Below are positions 17,205-46,196 of a stretch of DNA of 64,000 nucleotides, piece by piece. The DNA is taken from contig OY783195.1 of assembly GCA_963678675.1 (NCBI GenBank), positions 13,738,505-13,802,504 of the forward strand, in the 5' to 3' direction. Positions within the stretch are counted from its first letter, which is position 1; the number at the start of each line of letters is the position of its first letter. Source of the DNA: Xiphydria camelus (lineage: Eukaryota; Arthropoda; Insecta; Hymenoptera; Xiphydriidae). The notes under the pieces are model-generated. The model searched no databases, had not been told where the DNA came from, and was given only the letters and a program-made list of their open reading frames with translations. A program made the translations under genes and the position numbers.

Positions 17205-17371
17205 TGTGGTGTATTCAACCACGCAAGTATTGGGTAACACCTAGATATTGGGAGAAAGGGCTCTCCGTCAGAGTTAGTTGCGTGCTGACCCCCGGCCAGC
17301 ACACTGGAGCTCCGGCCCAGCCGCAAAGTATATGCCAATAAATATTCACATGTAACACCTAAGATTTAACA
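17205..17371 (+). repeat. 5' LTR of Ty3 copy A
   Basis: Starts TGTGGTGTATTCAACCACGC and ends AAGATTTAACA. It includes AATAAA near 17338 as a likely polyadenylation signal. The LTR is short for the family. TGTGGTG..CAACCACGC at the start could form a small hairpin. Confidence 0.92.
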
Positions 17372-17373
17372 AC

Positions 17374-17386
17374 TGGCGACGAGGAT
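17374..17386 (+). promoter_or_regulatory. Primer-binding site of Ty3 copy A
   Basis: TGGCGACGAGGAT lies two bases after the LTR, where the 3' end of a tRNA would anneal to start minus-strand synthesis. TGG is the expected complement of a tRNA CCA end. Which tRNA is used I cannot say; an arginine tRNA is possible. Confidence 0.65.
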
Positions 17387-17483
17387 TACAGAACCTATGT
17401 ACGCGAGTGCGATAAATAGTGTCCCGAAAACACGTGCGTAGAGCCAAGCTCCGGGGCGTTATATATTTACACAGAAAACTCTA

Positions 17484-20400
17484 ATGGAGGAAAAGCCGAA
17501 AGGAACGGCGTGGATTCAAAAACTAAATAAACAAGAAATTATCGCAGAGTTAGAGAAAAGAGGAGAATCTATCGAACAAACAGACACCCACGATATTTTG
17601 AGAAAACAATTGAGAGATACAATTAAAAAAGAAGCTTACATGACGCCGGAAAATTCAGAAGTAGAAACTGAGTTAGACGGAGAAGACAGTATGGCCAATC
17701 AGAAATTCGAATTTCAACCAAACAACGACTGGGAACTTTTCGAGGAAAAGCTGGAGTGTTTGTTTATTGCCAAGAACATAACAGACAACAAAGTGAAAGT
17801 GGCCACGCTAGTGACAAAATTAACCTCAGAGCCACATGCGCTTCTCAAGCAGCTAATCACACCAGCAAAAATCAAGGACAGCAGGTACGAGGACTTGACG
17901 AAGGTATTATCAGAACACCTAAAACCGAAGCCATCGGAAGCCATGGAGCGATGTACTTTTCACACAGCAAAACAAGAATCGCACGAGTCAATTACTGACT
18001 TTATAGCGAGACTAAAAAAATTGTCAATTCATTGCAATTTTACAGAATTAGACAATGCCATTCGAGACCAATTAGTGTGCGGGATCAGTGATAAAGACAT
18101 CAGAATAAAGTTATTTGAAGAAAAGGAATTAACATTGAAAAAAGCGCAAGAAATAGCGATAGCGCGAGAAGCAGCAGTGAAAAACGCTACAAAATCGAAT
18201 AATACCCTGGAGAATAAAAGTGTAAGAAACGAGGTATACGTTATACAAGGTGACGAGCAGAGGACATGGCAACGCAGAGGCCAGCGAGAAAGAGGTATAC
18301 AAGGGAAGGCGGCCAGCGACTACAACAACACACAGCAGCAGCCGAGTCAACATTCCACGGGATCATCCAAACCGGGCTGTTATCGCTGCGGGAAGGTAAA
18401 TCACCCGAGTAGCGAATGTCGTTTTCGAAATTATGTATGCAATAACTGCAATAAAAAAGGGCATTTAGCGAGAGCGTGTAAAAGCGGTAAAAATGTAGCG
18501 CAAAAGTCAACCGAAATAAAAAGATTAACAGCAAACGGAGAAAGCGACGAAATCACGGACGAAGATAGCGATGAAACGCGAGATCACGAAAAGAATTTTT
18601 TTTCTATCAATCAAATAAATGTAACAGACTCGCGTAAAGATAACAACGTAGCTAGAGAAGAAATAGTTAATCACACAAGCAATAATAGCACAGGGATAGT
18701 ACCCATGTACGTAGAATTAAAAATAAACGGAAAAAATATTAAATTCGAGATTGACACAGGTACATTTGCAACTGTAATTTCTGAAAAAACGTACAATAAA
18801 TATTTCAGTAAAAATAAAATCACAGAAACAGAAAAAGACTTAAGAGCGTATGGAGGACACGCATTAGTACCAAGAGGCGAACTAACTGATTTAGAGGTCA
18901 CGTTCAATAATACGACGAGAATATTGAAATGCTTTGTTTTGCCGGGAACAGGACCAGCGCTAATGGGTCGAGAATGGCTTACACAGTTCAGAGCATGGCC
19001 TTTAACTATACCGAAATTCGATTCAAATACAGTAAATAAAATCGAAGAGACCTTGTGTGATTATCTAGCTCGACACTTCCCTACGTTGTTTAGCGACTCA
19101 CCTGGATTATATAATAAGAGTACAACTAAAATCCACATGAAAGAAAATACGAAGCCAATAGCGTTAAAATGCAGACATGCTGCATATGCATTACGACTAA
19201 TGCTCGAAAAAGAAATAGACAGGTTAGTTGAATTAGGACACTTAAAACGGGTGGATGTATCAAAGTGGGCAACGCCTATCGTGCCAGTATTGAAAGGCAA
19301 CAATGAAATACGAATTTGCGGAGATTTTAAACTGACGCTAAACCCGCACCTGCTTATAGATAAATACCCGTTGCACACTATAGACGAAATTTTCGCAAAA
19401 CTACAAGGAGGTAAATTTTTTTCCGAATTGGATCTCAAACATGCGTATATGCAATTTCCGGTTGACGATGAAAGCGCGGAATTGTTAACGATAATTACAC
19501 ATAAGGGCTTGTATAGATACACAAAAATACCCGAAGGAATCTCATCAGCACCGGCAGACATACAGCGTAAAATGGACGAGTGTTTGAGTGGGATTGACGG
19601 AGTTATTGCATATCTAGACAATATATACGTATCAGGAAAGACTGAGGAAGAGCATTTGGGAAATTTAAAAATAGTGTGTAAAAGATTGCAAGATTGCAAC
19701 TTACGGCTAAACTTAAAGAAATGTAACTTTATGAAATCGCGTATTGATGTATTAGGGTTCGTAATAGACAAAGACGGTCTGCACAAATCAAAATCAAAAA
19801 TCAACGCAATGGTAAACGCACCGCGACCGACAAACGAAAAGGAACTTGCATCGTTATTAGGGCTTGTAAATTTTTATGCCAGATTCTTGAAAAACAGATC
19901 AGTAAAGCTAAAGCCACTTTACGACTTACTAAATAAAGAGAAAGAAGAGTGGGATGATGAATGCGAAACCGCATTTAAATGGGTAAAAAATGAACTAATA
20001 AATCCGAGTTTTTTAGCTCATTACGATCCAAATGAGGAAATATTACTCGCGTGTGATGCATCGGATTACGGATTATCCGCGATTCTGTCCCACCGATATA
20101 AAGATGGTTCAGAAAGGCCAATCGCGTATGCGTCAAAGAAAATACCCAAGACCGAATTAAAACGTGCAATTATTGATAAAGAAGCAATGGCAATAGTCTT
20201 CGGATTTAAACGATTCTATCAATTTGTATTCGGTAAGGAAATTACGTTACGTACAGATAATAAACCATTAGAATTAATATTAGGACCTAGAAAAGGAATA
20301 CCGCAAACGGCAGACAACAGATTGCAACGATATGCGTATTATCTCTCTGGATACCGTTACAAAATAGAACATGTGAAATCCGAGAGAAATGCGAACGCCG

Positions 20401-21632
20401 ATGCATTGTCGCGACTACCAGTAGAGGACGATACGGATATTTCAAACTTGTACAGTAAAACTCCGTCACAGGTTTATTTCTTCGAAAATCAATCGATTGC
20501 CTTTAATAGTAAAATGCTTGCGGCAGAAAGCAAGAAAGATAAAGTTCTTAGCGACGTGATACGTCATGTAACAGGCGACTGGCCGAATTACAACGATCTC
20601 ACCGAAGAAAAAAAAATTTTCTTTAAAATTAGATTCGAACTAAGTGTAGAGAAAGAGTGCCTCTTCTGGGGAGTGCGCGCATGCATTCCAGAAAAAATGC
20701 GATTCGCAATATTGAACGAACTTCATGCAACGCATTTCGGAATTGTAAAAATGAAAATGTTCGCGCGCTCATATGTGTATTGGCCGGGTATAGACTCAGC
20801 GATAGAAGAAATCGCAAATACATGTAAAACGTGTTTAATAGACAGAAAAGTTCCGAATAAAACACCACTAACGACGTGGCCATTTCCAAGTAAAGTATGG
20901 GGCCGCATACACTGTGATTATGCGAAATTTGAAGGTGACATGTATTTAATTATAATAGATGCACACAGCAAATGGCCAGAAATAATAAACTGCAAAAAAA
21001 ATACGGATGCGCAAAGGCTCATAAAAGAATTTAAAATTCTATTCACAAGATTTGGATTACCTATTCACTGCGTGACAGACGGAGGTCCGCAGTTTAGAAG
21101 CGCAGAATTTTGCAAGTTTCTCAAGGTAAATAATATAGAGCATACCTTTTCGCCTCCGTATCACCCAGCAACGAATGGGGCTGCGGAAAATTTTATACAA
21201 ACATTCAAGCATAAGGTAGCGAAAATTGTAAAAGGGGGAGAGAAAGTGGAAAACGCAGTTAGTAAATTCGTTTTCGATTATAGAAACTACCCGCACTGTA
21301 CGACGGGTAGAAGTCCTGCAAATATAATGTACAACCGGAACCCGAGAACCCGGTTCGATTGTTTAAAACCGAATGTATCTGCGTACGTTGAAAAACAACA
21401 AAGACGACAAATCGTCTCACGACCGGGAAATCGAAAAGTAAATGTAAGCATAGGAGATAAGGTTTATATGGATGCGCACGGCGTAAGAGACGAAAAACGA
21501 ATTGAAGGTAAAATTGTAAAGCAAACTACGCCTTCCACTTATGTCGTTCAAGCGGATTCTGGAAAACCGCACAAGCGGCACATTGATCAACTAATTGTAC
21601 CCCTGCGGCGATCCCCGAGACTTTTTAAATAA
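17484..21632 (+). CDS. Gag-Pol polyprotein of Ty3 copy A
   Basis: A single 1382-codon frame starting 112 bases after the LTR. Order: Gag capsid (about residues 1-250), two CCHC zinc knuckles (CYRCGKVNHPSSEC, CNNCNKKGHLARAC, about 298-332), aspartic protease (EIDTGTFATVIS, about 425), reverse transcriptase (ELDLKHAYMQF; AYLDNIYVSG, about 710), RNase H (LLACDASDYGLSA, about 855), integrase with zinc-binding H/C segment (LHATHFGI..CKTC), catalytic Asp in HCDYAKFEG, VTDGGPQFRS and AAENFIQTF, and a C-terminal RRSPRLFK. The RT box reads YLDN rather than YxDD, and the motif before it reads PEGISSAPA where PFG is usual. Length and order fit the family. Codon use is A-rich, as in many Ty3 elements. 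Enzyme activity of this copy is doubtful because of the YLDN change. Confidence 0.93.
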   Translation: MEEKPKGTAWIQKLNKQEIIAELEKRGESIEQTDTHDILRKQLRDTIKKEAYMTPENSEVETELDGEDSMANQKFEFQPNNDWELFEEKLECLFIAKNITDNKVKVATLVTKLTSEPHALLKQLITPAKIKDSRYEDLTKVLSEHLKPKPSEAMERCTFHTAKQESHESITDFIARLKKLSIHCNFTELDNAIRDQLVCGISDKDIRIKLFEEKELTLKKAQEIAIAREAAVKNATKSNNTLENKSVRNEVYVIQGDEQRTWQRRGQRERGIQGKAASDYNNTQQQPSQHSTGSSKPGCYRCGKVNHPSSECRFRNYVCNNCNKKGHLARACKSGKNVAQKSTEIKRLTANGESDEITDEDSDETRDHEKNFFSINQINVTDSRKDNNVAREEIVNHTSNNSTGIVPMYVELKINGKNIKFEIDTGTFATVISEKTYNKYFSKNKITETEKDLRAYGGHALVPRGELTDLEVTFNNTTRILKCFVLPGTGPALMGREWLTQFRAWPLTIPKFDSNTVNKIEETLCDYLARHFPTLFSDSPGLYNKSTTKIHMKENTKPIALKCRHAAYALRLMLEKEIDRLVELGHLKRVDVSKWATPIVPVLKGNNEIRICGDFKLTLNPHLLIDKYPLHTIDEIFAKLQGGKFFSELDLKHAYMQFPVDDESAELLTIITHKGLYRYTKIPEGISSAPADIQRKMDECLSGIDGVIAYLDNIYVSGKTEEEHLGNLKIVCKRLQDCNLRLNLKKCNFMKSRIDVLGFVIDKDGLHKSKSKINAMVNAPRPTNEKELASLLGLVNFYARFLKNRSVKLKPLYDLLNKEKEEWDDECETAFKWVKNELINPSFLAHYDPNEEILLACDASDYGLSAILSHRYKDGSERPIAYASKKIPKTELKRAIIDKEAMAIVFGFKRFYQFVFGKEITLRTDNKPLELILGPRKGIPQTADNRLQRYAYYLSGYRYKIEHVKSERNANADALSRLPVEDDTDISNLYSKTPSQVYFFENQSIAFNSKMLAAESKKDKVLSDVIRHVTGDWPNYNDLTEEKKIFFKIRFELSVEKECLFWGVRACIPEKMRFAILNELHATHFGIVKMKMFARSYVYWPGIDSAIEEIANTCKTCLIDRKVPNKTPLTTWPFPSKVWGRIHCDYAKFEGDMYLIIIDAHSKWPEIINCKKNTDAQRLIKEFKILFTRFGLPIHCVTDGGPQFRSAEFCKFLKVNNIEHTFSPPYHPATNGAAENFIQTFKHKVAKIVKGGEKVENAVSKFVFDYRNYPHCTTGRSPANIMYNRNPRTRFDCLKPNVSAYVEKQQRRQIVSRPGNRKVNVSIGDKVYMDAHGVRDEKRIEGKIVKQTTPSTYVVQADSGKPHKRHIDQLIVPLRRSPRLFK

Positions 21633-21647
21633 AAAAGGGGGAGAAGT
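21631..21647 (+). promoter_or_regulatory. Polypurine tract of Ty3 copy A
   Basis: AAAAAAGGGGGAGAAGT directly precedes the 3' LTR, the expected primer for plus-strand DNA synthesis. It overlaps or follows the gag-pol stop codon. Confidence 0.8.
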
Positions 21648-21814
21648 TGTGGTGTATTCAACCACGCAAGTATTGGGTAACACCTAGATATTGGGAGAAA
21701 GGGCTCTCCGTCAGAGTTAGTTGCGTGCTGACCCCCGGCCAGCACACTGGAGCTCCGGCCCAGCCGCAAAGTATATGCCAATAAATATTCACATGTAACA
21801 CCTAAGATTTAACA
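21648..21814 (+). repeat. 3' LTR of Ty3 copy A
   Basis: Same length as the 5' LTR and no difference found by eye, followed by the GGTAG duplication. Confidence 0.92.
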
Positions 21815-31559: not shown

Positions 31560-32690
31560 GTCCCGGCTTCGCACGGGTAGATTGTGGATTGATTTTGTCC
31601 GTCCACCATTGTTTAAATACATTTTTAATACAAAACTTTTAGTATTTTTCCCGGGCTACGCAATGGTCATATTGGATTTGACCTTGACCATGACCTTCAA
31701 GGTTATATCAAGATCAAATTAATTTTTTTTCACGTTCAAATGTGTCCTTGACCATTTTTTTTCATGTTACCTTTATTGTCAGCGGAGGTCAAATTTAGGT
31801 CAAGTATAGTTCGACTTTTTGAACACCCTGTATAAGATTTACTAACTCAGAAACCTTCGCGGATATGCGTCCAACTGTTCCCCAAATTTTCATCGCAATC
31901 GGATGAACGGTTTAGGAAGGCATAATAATCATCCGTACCGGTACTTTTTGAATACCCTGTATAAGATTTACTAACTCAGAAACCTTCGCGGGCATGCGTC
32001 CAACCATTTCCCAACTTTTCATCGCAATCGGATTAACGGTTTAGGAAGGCATAATAATCATCAGTACCGGTACTTTTTGAACACCTTTTATCAGATTTAC
32101 TAACTCAGAAACCTTCGCGGGCATGCGTCCAACCATTCCCCAAAGTTTCATCGCAATCGGATGAACGGTTTAGGAAGGCATAATAATCATCCGTACCGGT
32201 ACTTTTTGAACACCCTGTATAAGATTTACTAACTCAAACCTTCGCGGATATGCGTCCAACTGTTCCCCAAATTTTCGTCGCAATCGGATGAACGGTTTAG
32301 GAAGGCATAATAATCATCCGTACCGGTACTTTTTGAACACCCTATATAAGATTTACTAAGTCAGAAACCTTCGCGGGCATGCGTCCAACCATTCCCCAAC
32401 TTTTCATCGCAATCGGATGAACGGTTTAGGAAGGCATAATAATCATCAGTACCGGTACTTTTTGAACACCCTGTATAAGATTTACTAACTCAGAAACCTT
32501 CGCGGGCATGCGTCCAGCCATTCCCCAAAGTTTCATCGCAATCTGATGAACGGTTTAGGAAGGCATTTGATATTACCTTAAAGGTCACGCGGTCAAGGTC
32601 AAATCCAATACGACCACTGGGTAGCCACGGGAAAATCCTTAAAGTTTTGTATTAAACATTTTTCTCTAAAATGTTTTCCCGTTAAGGTAA
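31560..32690. mobile_element. TIR-bounded element carrying a 129-bp tandem array
   Basis: Left arm about 31615-31715 (AATACAAAACTTTTAGTATT, GGATTTGACCTTGACCATGA) is inverted at about 32570-32665. Outside the left arm lies CCCGTCCCGGCTTCGCACGGG, which folds on itself and is a common arthropod repeat motif. The interior is almost entirely the tandem array. No coding frame. Confidence 0.6.
31805..32570 (+). repeat. Six tandem copies of a 129-bp unit
   Basis: Each unit contains AAGATTTACTAACTCAGAAA, CCTTCGCGGGCATGCGTCCA, TCGCAATCGGATGAACGGTT and CCGTACCGGTACTTTTTGAA. Equivalent positions are 31834, 31963, 32092, 32221, 32348 and 32477, so the period is 129 except one 127-bp unit with a small deletion. 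Copies are highly similar. Confidence 0.92.
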
Positions 32691-35700: not shown

Positions 35701-36085
35701 TAGGGGAATGTGGGGTAAAGTGGGGAGCGGGTAATTGTCAATAATTCGCGTGCAGAACAGCGATATCTAACAAAAACAGTATGAACTTAGTTAACAAAGT
35801 GCCCTGGTGTAGTTTTGGACGTTGCAGCTCAGTCTGACATTACATAGCGAAGTTATGGAACACAGACCTAGTTTTTTGGCCTTGATGTAAGAATCTTCTG
35901 TTATTACAACATAAGTAAGTAATGAAAGAATGTTTCTGCACCAAAATTAGATACATGGTGTTGAAGGGAATTCTTTAGAGAACAAATACAGCCTAAAATG
36001 GTATCGTAATGTTGATTTATGATCAAATAACGAACTGTGTAGGAGGGGTAAGATGTACAGAGCGCGAATAAACTAGGAACTAAGG

Positions 36086-36091
36086 TTTATT
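36086..36091 (-). promoter_or_regulatory. Polyadenylation signal in the LTR
   Basis: AATAAA on the - strand, about 50 bases before the LTR end; the same signal is at 41446-41451 in the other LTR. It would place the R/U5 border close to the LTR end. Confidence 0.55.
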
Positions 36092-36424
36092 CGTGATCTG
36101 GAATACAAAATGGTAGCGTAAGCGTGTGGAAAGGGAAGATCCCAGGAGGGATCGAGCTCGGAGAAGCGTCGGAGGGGGCTGCCGGTCGGGCAGCTCGTAG
36201 GCGGTGCGGGTCGTCCTCAGGAACGGCTGCGTCGGTCCTGGCGTGCCGGAACTGCTCGAAGGCGGTGCGGGTCGTCCTCAGGAACGGCTGCGTCGGTCCT
36301 GGCGTGCCGGGGGCTGCTCGCGTCCCGAGAATCGTCGTCAGGCCGGAGGCGAAGGTGACTCGTCCACGAAGAGGGTCGCCGGGTAGGCGAGGTGACGTGA
36401 GAACGTCGGCTGGGGCGGCGAGGA

Positions 36425-36718
36425 CGCTAGGGTGTTCGCGGAGCGAAAACTGCCGCTAGCGAACCTCAAGCTGGGACGGCGTAGGGCCGTCAGAGATCTG
36501 CGCGCGAGAGGGTGTTCGCTGAGCGAAGACTTCCCTCTCGGTTGCTCGAGAGTCGATCGGTGAACCACGAGAGCTGCGATGTTCGCTGAGCGAAAACTGT
36601 CGCCGCTCGTGTGGAGGCCGTTCGACTACTAGGGTGTTCGCTGAGCGAAAACTTCCCTAGGGCGTTCGACTGAGACTTCCGAGGGATAGTGGTGTTCGCT
36701 GAGCGAAAACTTCCACTA
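36425..36718 (-). promoter_or_regulatory. Five stem-loops with shared loop and covarying stems (3' LTR)
   Basis: On the + strand each unit has a 20-nt core close to TGTTCGCTGAGCGAAAACTT, enclosed by complementary stems whose sequence differs from unit to unit: CGCTAGGG/CCGCTAGCG (36425-36461), CGAGAGGG/CCCTCTCG (36505-36540), GAGCTGCGA/TCGCCGCTC (36571-36608), CTAGGG/CCCTAG (36629-36660) and TAGTGG/CCACTA (36687-36718). Within the core TTCGC and GCGAA form an inner 5-bp stem. Conservation of the loop with compensating stem changes indicates selection for structure. They lie just downstream of the TATA-like box in element orientation, so would be in the RNA leader and in R. Function is not known to me. 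Confidence 0.85.
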
Positions 36719-36761
36719 CCGTGACTCGAGATGGTCTGGCGGCGATGGCTCGCCGGCCGTC

Positions 36762-36768
36762 TAATATA
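36762..36768 (-). promoter_or_regulatory. TATA-like box in the LTR
   Basis: TATATTA on the - strand, about 170 bases into the LTR. Transcription would then begin near 36740, right before the stem-loop array. Also at 42122-42128 in the 5' LTR, which would drive the element. Confidence 0.5.
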
Positions 36769-36934
36769 CCCCGTTTGCGGACCTTGCCGAAAGCCCGCTG
36801 ATGACCGATGACCGTTAGGTCCTCGGATGACGCGTCCTAACTACCTGCGCGTCCCTTATGACGCGCTCGGGGCTGTCTCCAACCCTTGAATCGTCGGCAG
36901 GCTGACGCATGCCGACTCGGCTGCGATCCACGCG

Positions 36935-39900
36935 TTACAATCTCCCCCTCTGGACCTGACGGCGTCCCGACGAAGGTCCAGGATCCTGCGTGGATGGCTG
37001 CACCGCTTGCTTGCGGGGACGTCCTCTTTTCCGTAGTGGTCGTACCGGTGCAGGTGGTTCTTCTTTTTCGGAGCCGTGGTATGGTGTTAAAGCTGACGTA
37101 TGATAGAGTCCCATGCTTTGTGTAGGTGCATCAGGACTGGCTACTTCGTAACTGGTAGAACCTTTTTGTTGCAATATGATGTAAGGTCCATCTCTTCTTG
37201 GAGCCAGCTTGGCACTGACCTGGCGTTTTCCTTGGCTAAGGGTATGGGAGGTGACCCATACTCGATCTCCAGGTGTATAATGTGGTCCTGGTCGTCGATT
37301 TTTGTCGGCCTGTTGCTTGCGCCGATCTTGTTGTTGCTCATGAGTTTCGCGGGCTAGTCGTAGTGTGTTAGCGAGTCTCCGAAGTTGTGGAGTGATCTCT
37401 TCGATGAAATTTTCTGATTCTACGATGTTGCGGAGATCCCTAGTGACGTCATCGGGAGTTCGTAATTCCCTGGCGAATGTTAGGTATGCGGCCGTGTACC
37501 CGGTGCTGCTGCAGCGTGCTGTGTTCATCGCGAACCTGATGGCGGGTAGATTGGAAGCCCATTCTGCATGATTTCCTTCGGCTAGCATTGCTAACCGGGG
37601 TTTCAAGTCCCGGTTTTTTCTTTCCACCGGATTTGCCTCCGGGTGGTACACTGGTGTAAAATTCTGTTGAATTCCTAGGCAATATGTGAGGTGCTGCATG
37701 ATTGCGCTAATGAATTGAGTCCCGTTGTCTGTCAATATTCTTCGGGGCGTTCCATAGCGCAGGAACACTTCATTAAGTAGTGTGTCGGCGCATGCTTTGG
37801 CGCTGGCCTCCTGTAAGGGAAAAAGTTCTACCCATCCCGTGGCGATGTCTTCCGCGATGAGTATCCAGCGATATCCCTCTTCTGTGGTCGGTAGTGGTCC
37901 GACGAGGTCGATGGATAAAATCTCGAACCTTTGTTTTAGTGGAGATGTTTGAACCAGGCCTGCTGGTTGCTGGTTGCTGGCTTTATACCTTTGGCAGTCT
38001 ACGCAGTTTTTGACGTAATCTGCGATGTATCGATTCATGCCCGTCCAATAGTAGCGTGAGCGTATCCTATGTGTGGTTCGCTCCGCTCCGTAGTGTCCTG
38101 CGGTCGGGGCATCATGGTATTGTTCTAGTATAACTCTTCTCAGCTGGGCCGGTATTACCAACTGCGGTTCATCTGCTTCGCTATCGGGATGATGACGATG
38201 AAGTATTCCGTTTGAAAGTAGGTAACCTCTTGATGTCCATCGAACGAAGTCCTCACTGGGGTCTTCTTTCTCGAAGCAGTCGATTATCTTCTTTATTTCC
38301 TCGTCGGCTAGCTGCTGTTGTCGTATTTCTGCTGCTCCCATCCGAGGTAGATCAATTAGTAGTGCCGCGATATCATCTTTTGGTGCCGGTTCGCTATCTT
38401 GCGATATTGGTCTGGACAGCATATCGGCCAGGACATTCGTTCTTCCTGGCGTGTAGCATATCCGGATATTGTACGGCTGCAAGGATAAAGCCCATCGAGC
38501 TAATCGTCCGCTGGGTGATTTTAGGCTCATTAGCCATTTCAGCGGTTGGTGATCGGAGGCGACGGTGATCTCGCCTCCTTCAATATATCCTCTGAATTTA
38601 TTGACTGCCCATACGACCGCGAGTGCTTCTCTTTCCGTTGTGGAATAGTTCTGTTCGGCCGTGGTGAGTAGTCGGCTGGCGTATTCGACCGGGTGTTCTT
38701 CCGGTCCCTCCCCCTGGAGGAGAGCTGCCCCTATGGCCACTCCGCTGGCGTCTGACTTGATGCAATAGGGTTTCTCTGCATCTGCTTGTTGAAGAAGGGG
38801 GTCTGAAATTAATGCCTGTTTTAAGGCTCGAAAGGCGGTTACTTGTTCCTCCTTCCATATCCACTCAGCGTTCTTCTTTGTAAGGCGAGTGAGCGGTTCT
38901 GCTATTTTCGCGAAGTCCTTTATAAATCGCCGGTACCAGGAGCATGTTTGCAAGAACGAGATTAATTGCTTGCTGTTCCTTGGTGGGGGCATCTCTTCAA
39001 TGGCCGCCACTTTTTCAGGAGCCGTCCTTAATCCTTCCGGAGTGATGAGGTGGCCCAGGTATCTTACCTGTGCGCAGCAGAAATGACTCTTCTTCCGGTT
39101 GATTCTTAATTTGAAGAATTGCAACCTCTGGAAGACGGCTGTTATATCCTCCAAGTGCCGTGAGAAGGTAGCGGATAGAATGATCAGATCGTCCAAATAG
39201 GCTAGTACGACACGCTCTCCGAGTCCTCGGCGTAAATGATCCATTGTTCTCTGGAAGGTGGCTGGTGCATTTTTGAGCCCAAATGGCATTCGTTTGAAGC
39301 GGTACGTGCCGAATGGTGTTGTAAATGCAGTCTTGTCTTTGTCTTCCGTCTTCATCTGGATTTGCCAATATCCAGACTGGAGATCCAATGTCGTCATGTA
39401 CCTTGTGCTCTTGGCGGCGTGCAACAGGTCATCCATTCTAGGTAATGGATAAGCATCGGTCACTGTTACTGCGTTGAGTTGACGGAAGTCGACGCAGACT
39501 CGTATGCTGCCATCCTTTTTTGGGATAAGCACTACTGGGGCTGCCCATGGAGATTCACATTCCTCAATAATGTCATCCTGTAACATTTTGGTGAGTTCCG
39601 CCATTAATACCTTTTTCCGTTGCGGCGATAGACGGTACGGAGGAACCGCCACGGGGGCATGGTTTGCCGTGTTGATGTGGTGTTCCGCCTGGTCTGTCGG
39701 TGGGCCTGTTGGCTCGAAGAGACTGGCGTAGTCTCTCAGTACTCTGTTTATTTGACTTCTCTCTTCTTCATCTAGTTCCATAGCCTCGTCCGGTCGTAGA
39801 ATGACATCAACCGATGCCAGGTCGATCCTCTCATAGTCTCCTTGTCTGACATTGGTTGCTGTTTGGTAGCATCGATCGAAGAGTTCGTCCAGATAGTCGT

Positions 39901-41296
39901 CTGGTTCGGTCCTTTGAGGGGAGGCGGGTAAGGGGCTGAGTGCCTTTGGAATCTCTATCAGATCCGACCAAAGGTTGACTTCTTCGGCCGCCTCACTCAT
40001 TGTTGTCAACACCTCTTTAGTTTGGGACGAGGAAACTGATTTCCCGGGCGTCCTTTGGAAGTCGTGGCGTTGTTGGGGATCCGTATTGAACCACCAAGTT
40101 TGTTGCGGAATGTCAATCACGATGCCGGCATTTTCTAAGAAGTCTACTCCTAGTAGCGTGTGGTTATGCTTGGCGTCTGGCAAAACGATGAGCTTTGTAG
40201 GAATTCGTCGTCCTTGCAGCCGTATGACCACGCTGGTAATTGGTACTTCCTGGAGCTGAGGGTTCCCGTCCGCGAGGGTGATCTGCTTGACCACTTTGGA
40301 GAACTTCCGCCCTTTTTCCAGCAAAGCTTGAAAAAGACTGTAGCTGGCAACGCTCGCTCTTGCGCCTGTGTCGATGCAGGCGCTGCCGACTAATCCCTCG
40401 ATTGAAATTTGGATGGTCGGACGTTGGTGCGAAACGTCGGTGTTTATGGCGCAGAAGTCCAATTGTGCCACGTCTGCTTTGCTCGGGTTGCAGGTAGGAC
40501 ACTTACTCCTTACAACTCCCGGGCGTTTGCAGCCATAGCATTGTATTGTTGAGGGTTCCTCCTTTACTCGTGTTGCTAGTGCTTTTTTCCGGCGGCAGCT
40601 TTCTTCGGTATGACCGAAGCGATTACATATTTCGCATCGTGGTCTTACTTTCTCCGTTTTACACTTTTTGACCTCCGTATTATTTTCTTCTTGAGGTGCT
40701 GACTTCACTATATTGTTAGATAGCTCCCGATCAATCTCTTCTACTTCGCGGGCCTTGCGTAGTAGATCCTGGAACGTGGTTACTACGTCTCGAGGAACTT
40801 TTTCCCGGATCCGTCGTCGTAATAGACCGAATACTAGATCTATTTGCTGGCGTTCCGGTAGCCGATATGGTAATTCTGCCAGCATAGCTCGTGCCTTGCA
40901 GATGAAAATGTCCGTGGTTGTTTCGTTATCCTGCCTCCGTTGGAAGAGGTCCACGAAGACTTGATGCGCCAACCTTCTTGGACAAAAGGCGGTCCGAAGG
41001 AGATCCATTGCTTCTGCCCAAGTTCCTGCGTTCTCCTTGGTACCTCGCCACCACGTGGCTGCGACATCTTGCAGGAGGAGTGGCAGACCCTTTAGTGCGT
41101 CTGCATCGCTGATCTCGCTCACCTCTTTAAAAATGGTGGACGCCGTGATAAATTCTTCGACCTTGTCGCGGTTTCTGGTTCCATTGTATCTGGACGTGCA
41201 CTTGGCGAAGCTGGTTCGTCTTCTTTCCTGCTGCTGTGGTATGTTGATCCTCTCGAGCAGCATCGTGAGCTGCTCGTTTGTCATTTGGACCGCCAT
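36935..41296 (-). CDS. Gag-Pol polyprotein of Ty3 copy B
   Basis: One open frame of 1453 codons. Gag capsid (about residues 1-200, with FAKCTSRYNGTRNRDKVEEF), a CCHC knuckle and a degenerate one (CEICNRFGHTEESC, CYGCKRPGVVRSKC; about 220-270), aspartic protease (ACIDTGARASVAS, about 310), reverse transcriptase (TLDLQSGYWQI, AYLDDLIIL, about 625-700), RNase H (CIKSDASGVAIGAAL, about 840), integrase with HYGAERTTHR..CVDCQ, then LSIDLVGPLP, LTDNGTQF and NPVERKNRD as the D,D,E residues, and a proline/arginine-rich tail. All catalytic residues are present. The stop codon is formed by the first bases of the LTR (TG TAA), so the polypurine tract is translated. The start is the first ATG, about 100 bases after the primer-binding site. 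Likely functional. Confidence 0.95.
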   Translation of the reverse strand: MAVQMTNEQLTMLLERINIPQQQERRRTSFAKCTSRYNGTRNRDKVEEFITASTIFKEVSEISDADALKGLPLLLQDVAATWWRGTKENAGTWAEAMDLLRTAFCPRRLAHQVFVDLFQRRQDNETTTDIFICKARAMLAELPYRLPERQQIDLVFGLLRRRIREKVPRDVVTTFQDLLRKAREVEEIDRELSNNIVKSAPQEENNTEVKKCKTEKVRPRCEICNRFGHTEESCRRKKALATRVKEEPSTIQCYGCKRPGVVRSKCPTCNPSKADVAQLDFCAINTDVSHQRPTIQISIEGLVGSACIDTGARASVASYSLFQALLEKGRKFSKVVKQITLADGNPQLQEVPITSVVIRLQGRRIPTKLIVLPDAKHNHTLLGVDFLENAGIVIDIPQQTWWFNTDPQQRHDFQRTPGKSVSSSQTKEVLTTMSEAAEEVNLWSDLIEIPKALSPLPASPQRTEPDDYLDELFDRCYQTATNVRQGDYERIDLASVDVILRPDEAMELDEEERSQINRVLRDYASLFEPTGPPTDQAEHHINTANHAPVAVPPYRLSPQRKKVLMAELTKMLQDDIIEECESPWAAPVVLIPKKDGSIRVCVDFRQLNAVTVTDAYPLPRMDDLLHAAKSTRYMTTLDLQSGYWQIQMKTEDKDKTAFTTPFGTYRFKRMPFGLKNAPATFQRTMDHLRRGLGERVVLAYLDDLIILSATFSRHLEDITAVFQRLQFFKLRINRKKSHFCCAQVRYLGHLITPEGLRTAPEKVAAIEEMPPPRNSKQLISFLQTCSWYRRFIKDFAKIAEPLTRLTKKNAEWIWKEEQVTAFRALKQALISDPLLQQADAEKPYCIKSDASGVAIGAALLQGEGPEEHPVEYASRLLTTAEQNYSTTEREALAVVWAVNKFRGYIEGGEITVASDHQPLKWLMSLKSPSGRLARWALSLQPYNIRICYTPGRTNVLADMLSRPISQDSEPAPKDDIAALLIDLPRMGAAEIRQQQLADEEIKKIIDCFEKEDPSEDFVRWTSRGYLLSNGILHRHHPDSEADEPQLVIPAQLRRVILEQYHDAPTAGHYGAERTTHRIRSRYYWTGMNRYIADYVKNCVDCQRYKASNQQPAGLVQTSPLKQRFEILSIDLVGPLPTTEEGYRWILIAEDIATGWVELFPLQEASAKACADTLLNEVFLRYGTPRRILTDNGTQFISAIMQHLTYCLGIQQNFTPVYHPEANPVERKNRDLKPRLAMLAEGNHAEWASNLPAIRFAMNTARCSSTGYTAAYLTFARELRTPDDVTRDLRNIVESENFIEEITPQLRRLANTLRLARETHEQQQDRRKQQADKNRRPGPHYTPGDRVWVTSHTLSQGKRQVSAKLAPRRDGPYIILQQKGSTSYEVASPDAPTQSMGLYHTSALTPYHGSEKEEPPAPVRPLRKRGRPRKQAVQPSTQDPGPSSGRRQVQRGRL
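36940..36952 (-). promoter_or_regulatory. Polypurine tract of Ty3 copy B
   Basis: AGAGGGGGAGAT on the - strand, immediately before the 3' LTR and inside the last codons of gag-pol. Confidence 0.8.
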
Positions 41297-41380
41297 ACCT
41301 TCCGCTAGCCTCGCGCTTCTCCTGGGGGGGGACGTGGTGGGTTTAGGATTCTACCCGGAAGTTGGGTGAGGATTCTACCC

Positions 41381-41395
41381 GGAAGTTGGGCGCCA
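41381..41395 (-). promoter_or_regulatory. Primer-binding site of Ty3 copy B (tRNA-Lys type)
   Basis: TGGCGCCCAACTTCC on the - strand, two bases after the 5' LTR. TGGCGCCCAAC is the usual complement of a lysine tRNA 3' end. Upstream, ATTCTACCCGGAAGTTGGG is tandemly repeated (41348-41391 on the + strand). Confidence 0.75.
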
Positions 41396-41397
41396 GT

Positions 41398-42299
41398 TGT
41401 AGGAGGGGTAAGATGTACAGAGCGCGAATAAACTAGGAACTAAGGTTTATTCGTGATCTGGAATACAAAATGGTAGCGTAAGCGTGTGGAAAGGGAAGAT
41501 CCCAGGAGGGATCGAGCTCGGAGAAGCGTCGGAGGGGGCTGCCGGTCGGGCAGCTCGTAGGCGGTGCGGGTCGTCCTCAGGAACGGCTGCGTCGGTCCTG
41601 GCGTGCCGGAACTGCTCGAAGGCGGTGCGGGTCGTCCTCAGGAACGGCTGCGTCGGTCCTGGCGTGCCGGGGGCTGCTCGCGTCCCGGGAATCGTCGTCA
41701 GGCCGGAGGCGAAGGTGACTCGTCCACGAAGAGGGTCGCCGGGTAGGCGAGGTGACGTGAGAACGTCGGCTGGGGCGGCGAGGACGCTAGGGTGTTCGCG
41801 GAGCGAAAACTGCCGCTAGCGAACCTCAAGCCGGGACGGCGTAGGGCCGTCAGAGATCTGCGCGCGAGAGGGTGTTCGCTGAGCGAAGACTTCCCTCTCG
41901 GTTGCTCGAGAGTCGATCGGTGAACCACGAGAGCTGCGATGTTCGCTGAGCGAAAACTGTCGCCGCTCGTGTGGAGGCCGTTCGACTACTAGGGTGTTCG
42001 CTGAGCGAAAACTTCCCTAGGGCGTTCGACTGAGACTTCCGAGGGATAGTGGTGTTCGCTGAGCGAAAACTTCCACTACCGTGACTCGAGATGGTCTGGC
42101 GGCGATGGCTCGCCGGCCGTCTAATATACCCCGTTTGCGGACCTTGCCGAAAGCCCGCTGATGACCGATGACCGTTAGGTCCTCGGATGACGCGTCCTAA
42201 CTACCTGCGCGTCCCTTATGACGCGCTCGGGGCTGTCTCCAACCCTTGAATCGTCGGCAGGCTGACGCATGCCGACTCGGCTGCGATCCACGCGTTACA
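41398..42299 (-). repeat. 5' LTR of Ty3 copy B
   Basis: Same organisation as the 3' LTR; this copy should carry the active promoter. Confidence 0.93.
41785..42078 (-). promoter_or_regulatory. Five stem-loops with covarying stems (5' LTR)
   Basis: The same five units as in the 3' LTR, 5360 bp away (41785-41821, 41865-41900, 41931-41968, 41989-42020, 42047-42078), with no change in any stem or loop. Confidence 0.85.
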
Positions 42300-45065: not shown

Positions 45066-45245
45066 TTGACGCGCGAAAGGGAAAAGGAAAAGGAAAAGGG
45101 CGCAGAGGCGCCGCGGCCGAGGGAAAGGCGCGAATGCGCCGCGGTCAAGGGGAAAAGGCGCGAAGGCGCCGCGGTCGAGGAAGGCGTGCAATGCCGCGGA
45201 AGGAAGCGGAGAAAGGCGCGGAGACGCCGCGGTCGAGGAAGGACG
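45066..45245 (+). repeat. GC-rich minisatellite
   Basis: Imperfect units around GGCGCGAAGGCGCCGCGGTC..GAGGAAA, with GGAAAAGGAAAAGG runs at the start. It follows a TACAGGGTGAGGCAC end (45013) like those of mariner-type MITEs, and is GC-rich against an AT-rich background. Confidence 0.7.
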
Positions 45246-45364: not shown

Positions 45365-46196
45365 TTTTTTTTTTTTTTTTTTTGAAGATGGGTAAGGAAG
45401 GGAATCTTCGACAAGACACCCAAGATGGTAGTGTCGGATTTCTACCGACTAAACCCCTCCTCGTAGTTACCAATCCATAGGGTTATAAACCAAATAGAAG
45501 ACGAAAAAGGGGACCTTGCTAACACTAGCTGAGGCCACTGTACGCCGAAGCGAAGCTAGGGAGTGACAGAGTCGGATAAGAGAGCACACGGCCTACGGAT
45601 TATATCCTTGGGTTTGCTGGAATAGTTGCGCAGACCTTGGATGGAGGGGTTTACGTGAGTCTTTATGGACTTACGGAGTTTTGCTGCGTATGTGCTAACG
45701 GCTACGCGTAGAGAGGAAAGACTGGTTTCAAAGAGTAACTGGGAGTTTCTTATAAACCAGGGAGTGTTAAGGAACCGCGGAGAAGTCTCATGTAGGTTCC
45801 TTGGATAGGGGTAGCGTAAGTGCAAATGCTTCTAATTATGGCATTGAAGGTACGAACCTTGATTTGTTGGGAAATATTTTTATTGTTAAAAAAAAGGGTT
45901 TAAGAGAGACGTAGGCGCCTATCGCTTTGTTACGGACGGAGGTAATCTGTTTAGCCCAACTGAGCTTCCTATCAAATGTCACACCGAGATATTTGGCGGA
46001 ATAGCTCCAGGGGTTACGATGGTTGCATACAGAAAGTGGATCTAGGGGGATGTTTCGTCGAGAGAAGAAAACCGCCTCGAATTTGGTTTCGTTGAGGGCG
46101 AAGCCCCATTTATGGTACCAGCCGATGAGAGAGGGTAGGAATCTGTTCATAACAGTGGAGCAGGCTTTCTTAGTTTGAGAGGAGTAAAGAAGGGAG
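45365..46196 (-). pseudogene. Jockey-like LINE, 5'-truncated with internal deletion
   Basis: On the - strand: reverse-transcriptase C-terminal part (WYHKWGFALNETKFEAVFFS, SAKYLGVTFDRKLSWAKQIT, VRNKAIGAYVSLKPF; 45836-46150), then, after a deletion near 45830, the tail of the ORF (YPYPRNLHETSPRFLNTPWF, IRNSQLLFETS, NPSIQGLRNYSS). A poly(A) of about 22 (T-run at 45363-45385 on the + strand) ends it, and AATTTTCCATT is duplicated at 45354-45364 and 46197-46207. A normal, dead target-primed insertion. No catalytic YxDD is present. Confidence 0.8.

Follow-up and report, generated by a model that had tools for sequence, protein, structure and literature searches.

In the synthetic MS2 and PP7 reporter arrays one docking hairpin is repeated on diversified stems and, to our knowledge, little is known about how Ty3/Gypsy elements of animals select their own RNA. 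Amongst RNA viruses, MS2 and satellite tobacco necrosis virus possess dispersed packaging signals, hairpins with a common short motif through which coat protein is bound multivalently (PMC3662417, in the text available). In the Ty1 and Ty3 retrotransposons, a Gag protein with a CCHC knuckle must select its own RNA, and the available text of PMC4974528 describes packaging and dimerisation determinants amongst which a single module repeated in tandem on differing stems does not figure. Repeats of another kind are found in Drosophila gypsy, where the accessible part of PMC2374998 reports an insulator of 12 Su(Hw) sites clustered within 340 bp of the 5' UTR. Finally, in retroviruses whose LTRs have a long R region, conservation in R has been linked to stem-loops, with no one-module array mentioned in the available portion of that report (PMC3601003).

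Here we describe five hairpins, repeated in each LTR of a Ty3/Gypsy-like element, that are best read as an array of structured RNA, placed in leader and R as these are predicted, in which one putative docking module is set on unlike stems. Like the signals of MS2 and satellite tobacco necrosis virus, as far as these are covered by the text cited above, the array consists of several hairpins with one putative recognition motif. In those viruses, however, the motif is short and the sites are spread genome-wide, whereas here five sites lie within ~300 nt and have ~19 nt in common, each RNA would carry the array twice should the prediction of R be right, and binding is only proposed. As with the Ty1 and Ty3 determinants described in the cited text, the Gag of this element has a CCHC knuckle, and as in the long-R retroviral LTRs of the cited report there are conserved stem-loops in an R that is, in this case, predicted. 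The gypsy insulator, in the account cited, is likewise made of repeats clustered in a Ty3/Gypsy leader region, but consists of DNA sites in AT-rich sequence, and the Su(Hw) motif is absent from the LTRs studied here. The engineered MS2 and PP7 arrays place the same hairpin on different flanks, as this array does, but this array is natural. Literature searches, mainly of papers outside subscription, found no described Ty3/Gypsy element with such an array.

Results

A complete Ty3/Gypsy-like element

The array lies in a complete Ty3/Gypsy-like LTR element of 6262 bp, at positions 36038-42299 on the minus strand of the window (the whole 64-kb stretch of DNA analysed here), which was recognised from its LTR pair with flanks and from its protein domains. 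Comparison of the two 902-bp LTRs (3' LTR, 36038-36939; 5' LTR, 41398-42299; both on the minus strand) revealed differences at 2 sites, which suggests a young insertion. The LTRs end in TGTA..TACA, of the TG..CA type, and the target-site duplication ACTG is found at both ends of the element, so that it has the paired LTRs and short duplication of Ty3/Gypsy elements (Metaviridae). An intact gag-pol open reading frame of 1453 aa (36935-41296, minus strand) codes for a Gag part with a CCHC knuckle pattern at residue 221, followed by Pfam domains for protease (residues 295-389), reverse transcriptase (RT; 591-749), RNase H (839-942) and integrase (1048-1219). The protease call depends on one of three Pfam models that passed its cut-off, with the other two slightly under. 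This order, gag and then protease, RT, RNase H and integrase, is that of Ty3/Gypsy (Metaviridae). The best four protein relatives listed have 51-59% identity across 44-99% of the reading frame, the closest named relatives being from insects, and a search of IMG/VR found no relative of the element's pol.

A candidate primer binding site, TGGCGCCCAAC (41385-41395, minus strand), is found 2 nt from the 5' LTR, and presumably matches tRNA-Lys; a candidate polypurine tract, AGAGGGGGAGA, precedes the 3' LTR. Read in the sense of the element, which is the minus strand, the LTR carries a putative TATA-like box, TATATT, at LTR position 172 (36763-36768 in the 3' LTR and 42123-42128 in the 5' LTR), followed by the hairpins at LTR positions 219-516, a putative poly(A) signal, AATAAA, at LTR position 849 (36086-36091) and the gag ATG at element position 1004. 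The initial annotation had placed the array after a TATA-like box and before AATAAA, and this order is correct in the sequence; the further placement in the 5' leader and in R, at both ends of the RNA, is a prediction from these signals. The predicted leader of 803 nt contains no ATG, and this absence was not significant (1.3 expected, P 0.23), so that depletion of ATG failed as proof of a leader.

Other repeats were noted within the element. The AATAAA lies inside an inverted repeat (36058-36100 and 41418-41460) with 16-nt arms that are 88% complementary and a folding energy of ~-14 kcal/mol, a 61-bp tandem duplication (36193-36310 and 41553-41670) is present in the part of the LTR downstream of the hairpins, and a 24-bp tandem duplication (41345-41390) adjoins and overlaps the region of the primer binding site. 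Elsewhere in the window there is a second Ty3/Gypsy-like element (17205-21814, plus strand), with identical 167-bp LTRs and a 1382-aa reading frame, in which a search with a model of the hairpins found no match at E 0.001. The window also holds a 129-bp tandem repeat in 5.9 copies (31814-32566) and a GC-rich repeat (45091-45242) with GGCGC...GCGCC palindromes at a period of ~30/58 bp. No tRNA gene was found in the window by a scan run under the bacterial code.

Five hairpins in each LTR

Each LTR possesses five hairpins, U1 to U5, and in the 3' LTR the array extends over 36424-36721 on the minus strand. The common 20-mer has ten matches in the window at 0-2 mismatches (0.00 expected), ten because the second LTR, not included in the initial annotation, holds the same five units. 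Folded alone, all units follow a common plan, in which an outer stem leads on its 5' side into the 5 nt MAGUY, then UUCGC, a triloop, GCGAA, the 2 nt CA and the returning arm of the outer stem. The tip is therefore a 5-bp stem, UUCGC/GCGAA, with a triloop (UCA, or UCC in U5 only) and an asymmetric internal loop of 5+2 nt, and is near-invariant. In contrast, the outer stems, of 8, 6, 8, 8 and 8 pairs in U1 to U5, differ in sequence. Those of the 3' LTR units, all on the minus strand, are GGUAGUGG/CCACUAUC in U1 (36684-36721; 8 pairs including one G.U), CUAGGG/CCCUAG in U2 (36626-36663), GAGC-G-GCGA/UCGC-A-GCUC in U3 (36571-36608; 8 pairs with a central G.A mismatch), CGAGAGGG/CCCUCUCG in U4 (36504-36541) and CGCUAG-C-GG/CCCUAGCG in U5 (36424-36461; with a bulged C). 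The corresponding units of the 5' LTR, also on the minus strand, are found at 42044-42081 (U1), 41986-42023 (U2), 41931-41968 (U3), 41864-41901 (U4) and 41784-41821 (U5). The outer stems of U2 and U5 are the most alike, with crossed duplex energies of -9.5 and -7.0.

This architecture bears out the earlier description of five units with a common 20-mer and with outer stems that differ while remaining complementary, since every stem named there is present, and the inner TTCGC/GCGAA stem was seen in all five units. What had been called a 20-nt loop is instead the 5-bp stem, triloop and MAGUY/CA internal loop described above. Rfam gave no match at gathering-score level in the 64-kb window, and a search of the LTR at E up to 5 gave a single weak match, outside the array; a known Rfam RNA was thus rejected as the identity of the array.

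Matched arms, covariation and predicted folds

The pairing of the arms is specific to each unit. By summed duplex energy, the native arrangement ranks first amongst the 120 permutations, the mean duplex energy being -11.2 kcal/mol for native arms, compared with -4.5 when arms are crossed and -4.8 when they are crossed after shuffling. When the arms of each unit were shuffled, their joint complementarity was reached in 0 of 20000 trials. Across the five units, 11 cells were changed on both sides of a pair against 3.9 expected, a count that none of 500 shuffles reached and for which the structure was taken from the same five units, and sliding the alignment by 1-3 columns lowered pairing from 89% to 35-47%. 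Paired changes thus exceed those of shuffles, as in a covarying structured RNA, and an origin of the array by chance is rejected by the 20-mer count, the five-unit covariation and the ranks of arm pairing. The outer stems are, on the same comparison of duplex energies, no more unlike one another than random stems.

Predicted folding depends on context. The 304-nt array has a folding z-score of -4.58 against dinucleotide shuffles (an equal-length stretch of the same LTR gives +0.52), part of which comes from cross-pairing, because the regions of U1 and U2, whose tips are both self-complementary, pair with each other in the 304-nt and longer folds. All five hairpins form, with mean outer-pair probabilities of 0.87-0.98, when 340 nt are folded (the 304 nt with 16 nt on one side and 20 nt on the other). 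As drawn, the best fold of the 304 nt contains U3 and U4 alone, and that of 702 nt contains U3 and U5 alone, with U4 at a probability of ~0.3 and U1 and U2 near 0, so that a stable set of all five hairpins in longer folds was not upheld. Folding energies alone therefore do not settle the structure drawn, and the comparative evidence has to do so.

Copies in the host genome

The exact 20-mer occurs 247 times in the 357-Mb host genome (reversed control, 0), and the 100 places listed amongst these 247 fall into 45 array loci. Six pairs of these 45 listed loci lie 2794-2796 bp apart, and none has the 5360-bp spacing of the copy in the window. Two such short derivatives (L114 and L115, with LTRs 2795 bp apart) have lost the RT part while keeping the LTRs, the leader and the gag-protease part; compared in full, they retain the first 1505 nt and the last 126-136 nt of the reading frame, with a small piece between. 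Copies were collected from the listed places of the exact 20-mer and from a DNA search in which 40 of 220 candidates were scored, a sampling by exact match and best candidates in which old, strongly diverged copies are under-represented and intact tips favoured. A search of IMG/VR with an 18-mer gave one exact match, in a 43-kb contig, which was taken as chance since only the tip fitted the hairpin model, and in bacterial and archaeal genomes a 17-mer was found in 64 stretches, with one match each.

Units have been both gained and lost, as seen in an alignment of 40 of 41 sequences (L113 being too short). In L109 U3 and U4 have been joined at the tip, with the 5' half retained from the former and the 3' half from the latter, and in L077 a 44-bp duplication adds one unit. 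The array of L107 is interrupted by an A-tailed insertion that, by eye, resembles window positions 45400-45500 in reverse.

For the array itself we aligned 75 loci and both LTRs of the window, leaving aside L079, L107, L109 and L113 as short or disrupted, which gave 73 segments, 45 of them distinct; some of the loci duplicate one another in genomic place, and the LTRs of the window themselves account for two. In this alignment three double changes preserve pairing: C-G to U-A at U3 pair 6, in 17 of the 45 rows; A-U to U-A at U4 pair 6, in L094 alone; and G-C to A-U at U5 pair 2, in L120 alone. Substitutions break none of 62 pairs in 34 of the 45 rows, when U3 pair 5, which is unpaired in all rows, and U5 inner pair 5 are left out of the count. 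The latter, which closes the inner stem of U5, reads C.A in 28 of the 45 rows and C-G in L090, L094, L117 and L120, a distribution from which we infer that the pair was probably lost in the young lineage. Gaps were also set aside, so that losses by indel (one base inserted within the U3 inner arm of L120, and two bases missing from one U5 arm of L117) are not counted as breaks.

Each of the 17 copies that carry 12 differences or more relative to the window breaks fewer hairpin pairs by substitution than the mean of random placement, and in 7 of them the deficit has P <=0.05, although their common ancestry means that the 17 tests are not independent and that the change in U3 is one event. L120 (31 differences) has 0 broken pairs against 7.6 expected and L094 (23 differences) has 0 against 5.9, each with two double changes. 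Changes shared between copies were also fewer in the hairpins, as measured in 68 copies with more than 600 aligned bases (59 distinct): 9 per 190 sites (0.047) in the hairpins, against 86 per 690 (0.125) elsewhere within LTR positions 1-880 (Fisher P 0.0015) and 16 per 114 (0.140) in the spacers between hairpins (P 0.008). In addition, in a set of 36 distinct units, taken from the window and from 10 copies picked for divergence and also used for the hairpin-model search, 74 cells are altered in both partners of a pair, compared with 22.8, a level reached in none of 500 shuffles, with the caveat that this alignment was fitted to the structure and the count leans that way; one of five measures, the number of further pair types, was not above shuffles (19 against 19.0).

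The initial annotation had proposed selection for a fold, and had held that breaks as frequent as conserved pairings in other copies would speak against it. Private changes are of this kind, with 11 pairs kept and 13 broken, and they have no strand preference (G.U 9 against A.C 8), a neutrality expected of dead copies. Shared changes, those found in at least two distinct sequences, keep 6 pairs and break 3, with 1 at an already unpaired position, numbers too few to decide, in a tally that scores the C.A of the U5 closing pair as a loss, a direction that for this pair is reversed when the majority state is taken as the start; with the U5 pair counted, there are 3 sense-only G.U and 3 antisense-only A.C. 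Selection for the fold is thus supported by the comparison of the five units and, more weakly, by the copies, through three double changes, few breaks and fewer shared changes.

Outside the hairpins, the extended stems predicted by folding the window copy had significantly few broken pairs in 0 of 14 copies, so that an overall constraint on extended basal stems was not upheld; double changes reached P <=0.05 in 2 of the 14. In an RNAalifold fold of 37 rows, for which three further disrupted copies were left out, the basal stem of U1 has one double change, in 12 of the 37.

Discussion

Our tentative preference, held at somewhat short of even confidence, is for a multivalent docking array in the RNA of the element, likely bound by its own Gag for packaging. 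The array would sit in the 5' leader and, by way of R, near both ends of the RNA, as its place between the TATA-like box and AATAAA suggests. The protein contact would be made by the conserved tip (UUCGC-UCA-GCGAA plus its MAGUY/CA internal loop), since the tip is the part that is both repeated and constrained, while the stems need only be stems. Five such contacts within ~300 nt at each end of the RNA may give avidity, through which Gag would recognise the array and select its own RNA for packaging. The identity of the binding protein is the least certain step of this explanation; likely it is Gag, the obvious partner in a retrotransposon in which one RNA serves as both message and genome. 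The CCHC knuckle pattern in Gag fits this reading, as do the trans-packaging needs of the derivatives that lack RT, although these keep their LTRs and so carry the array along whatever its role.

The same RNA-level evidence (five-unit covariation, few broken pairs and fewer shared changes) would serve for an element bound by a host protein that governs how a long structured leader is exported from the nucleus, kept stable or translated, and the predicted leader is of ~800 nt. This we consider unlikely: nothing indicates any particular host factor, and Rfam yielded neither a gathering-level match in the window nor, for the LTR at E up to 5, more than the one weak match outside the array. Alternatively, the hairpins might be dimer-initiation sites, each unit opening to pair in register with its counterpart on another genomic RNA. 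The tip is nearly palindromic, the predicted gain on homodimer formation is 9.0 kcal/mol for U1-U4 and 4.7 for U5, and amongst the ten combinations of different units only U2-U5 gains (3.6). Such a gain is, however, expected of any near-perfect hairpin, and U1 and U2 take part in other, intramolecular pairings when longer stretches are folded; we regard this role as decidedly improbable. A usual retroviral kissing loop was rejected, because the apical loop, UCA or UCC, is not self-complementary.

Two further readings dispense with a role in RNA. Conserved near-palindromes of 13 bp clustered downstream of a TATA-like box, together with changes that lack strand preference, are what one might see if the array acted as DNA, either as clustered sites for a host DNA-binding protein, in an insulator or enhancer like that of the gypsy 5' UTR (12 Su(Hw) sites in a 340-bp cluster, in the part of PMC2374998 available), or as cruciforms. 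A protein on duplex DNA, however, has no need of outer arms that are complementary and unrelated between units, and the arms are offset, by 5 against 2 nt. For the Su(Hw) motif, the one examined, none of the 20 window matches to YRYTGCATAYYY at up to one mismatch falls in either LTR, and a gypsy-type Su(Hw) insulator was rejected; altogether we hold a DNA role to be distinctly unlikely. The gain and loss of units through the tip (L077, L109) and the neutrality of private changes would suit a by-product devoid of function, in which template switching made the inverted repeats and duplication spread them, but one tip with five unrelated, matched stems is not readily produced in this way, shared changes are rarer in hairpins than in spacers and diverged copies break fewer pairs than expected, which leaves this the explanation we find very improbable.

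Returning to a docking array bound by Gag, the unlike stems may have a purpose of their own, since arms of different units would pair if the stems were identical, and long direct repeats would tend to be lost through template switching during reverse transcription; the tip deletion of L109 and the duplication of L077 indicate that repeats are lost and gained. Such a benefit against cross-pairing and repeat loss is at most plausible, given that the stems are no more unlike than random ones and that the mispairing of U1 with U2 in longer folds implies that unlike stems do not stop tips from cross-pairing in silico. A more elaborate version, to which we give doubtful standing, is a natural orthogonal array, in which a protein-docking tip present five times per LTR, and up to ten times per genomic RNA, would be carried on private, self-complementary and mutually unlike stems, so that the units would neither recombine nor cross-fold when protein-bound, and each could pair, in register, with the matching unit of a second RNA.

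If the array is a packaging signal, it would be a compact and repeated one, recognisable in sequence searches by its short motif, and the copies that have lost or gained units would be natural variants already at hand. If true, the explanation would suggest how a retroelement keeps tandem repeats despite their loss in reverse transcription, with all but the contact free to diverge, and, should the orthogonal array be real, it would be a natural counterpart of the engineered MS2 arrays.
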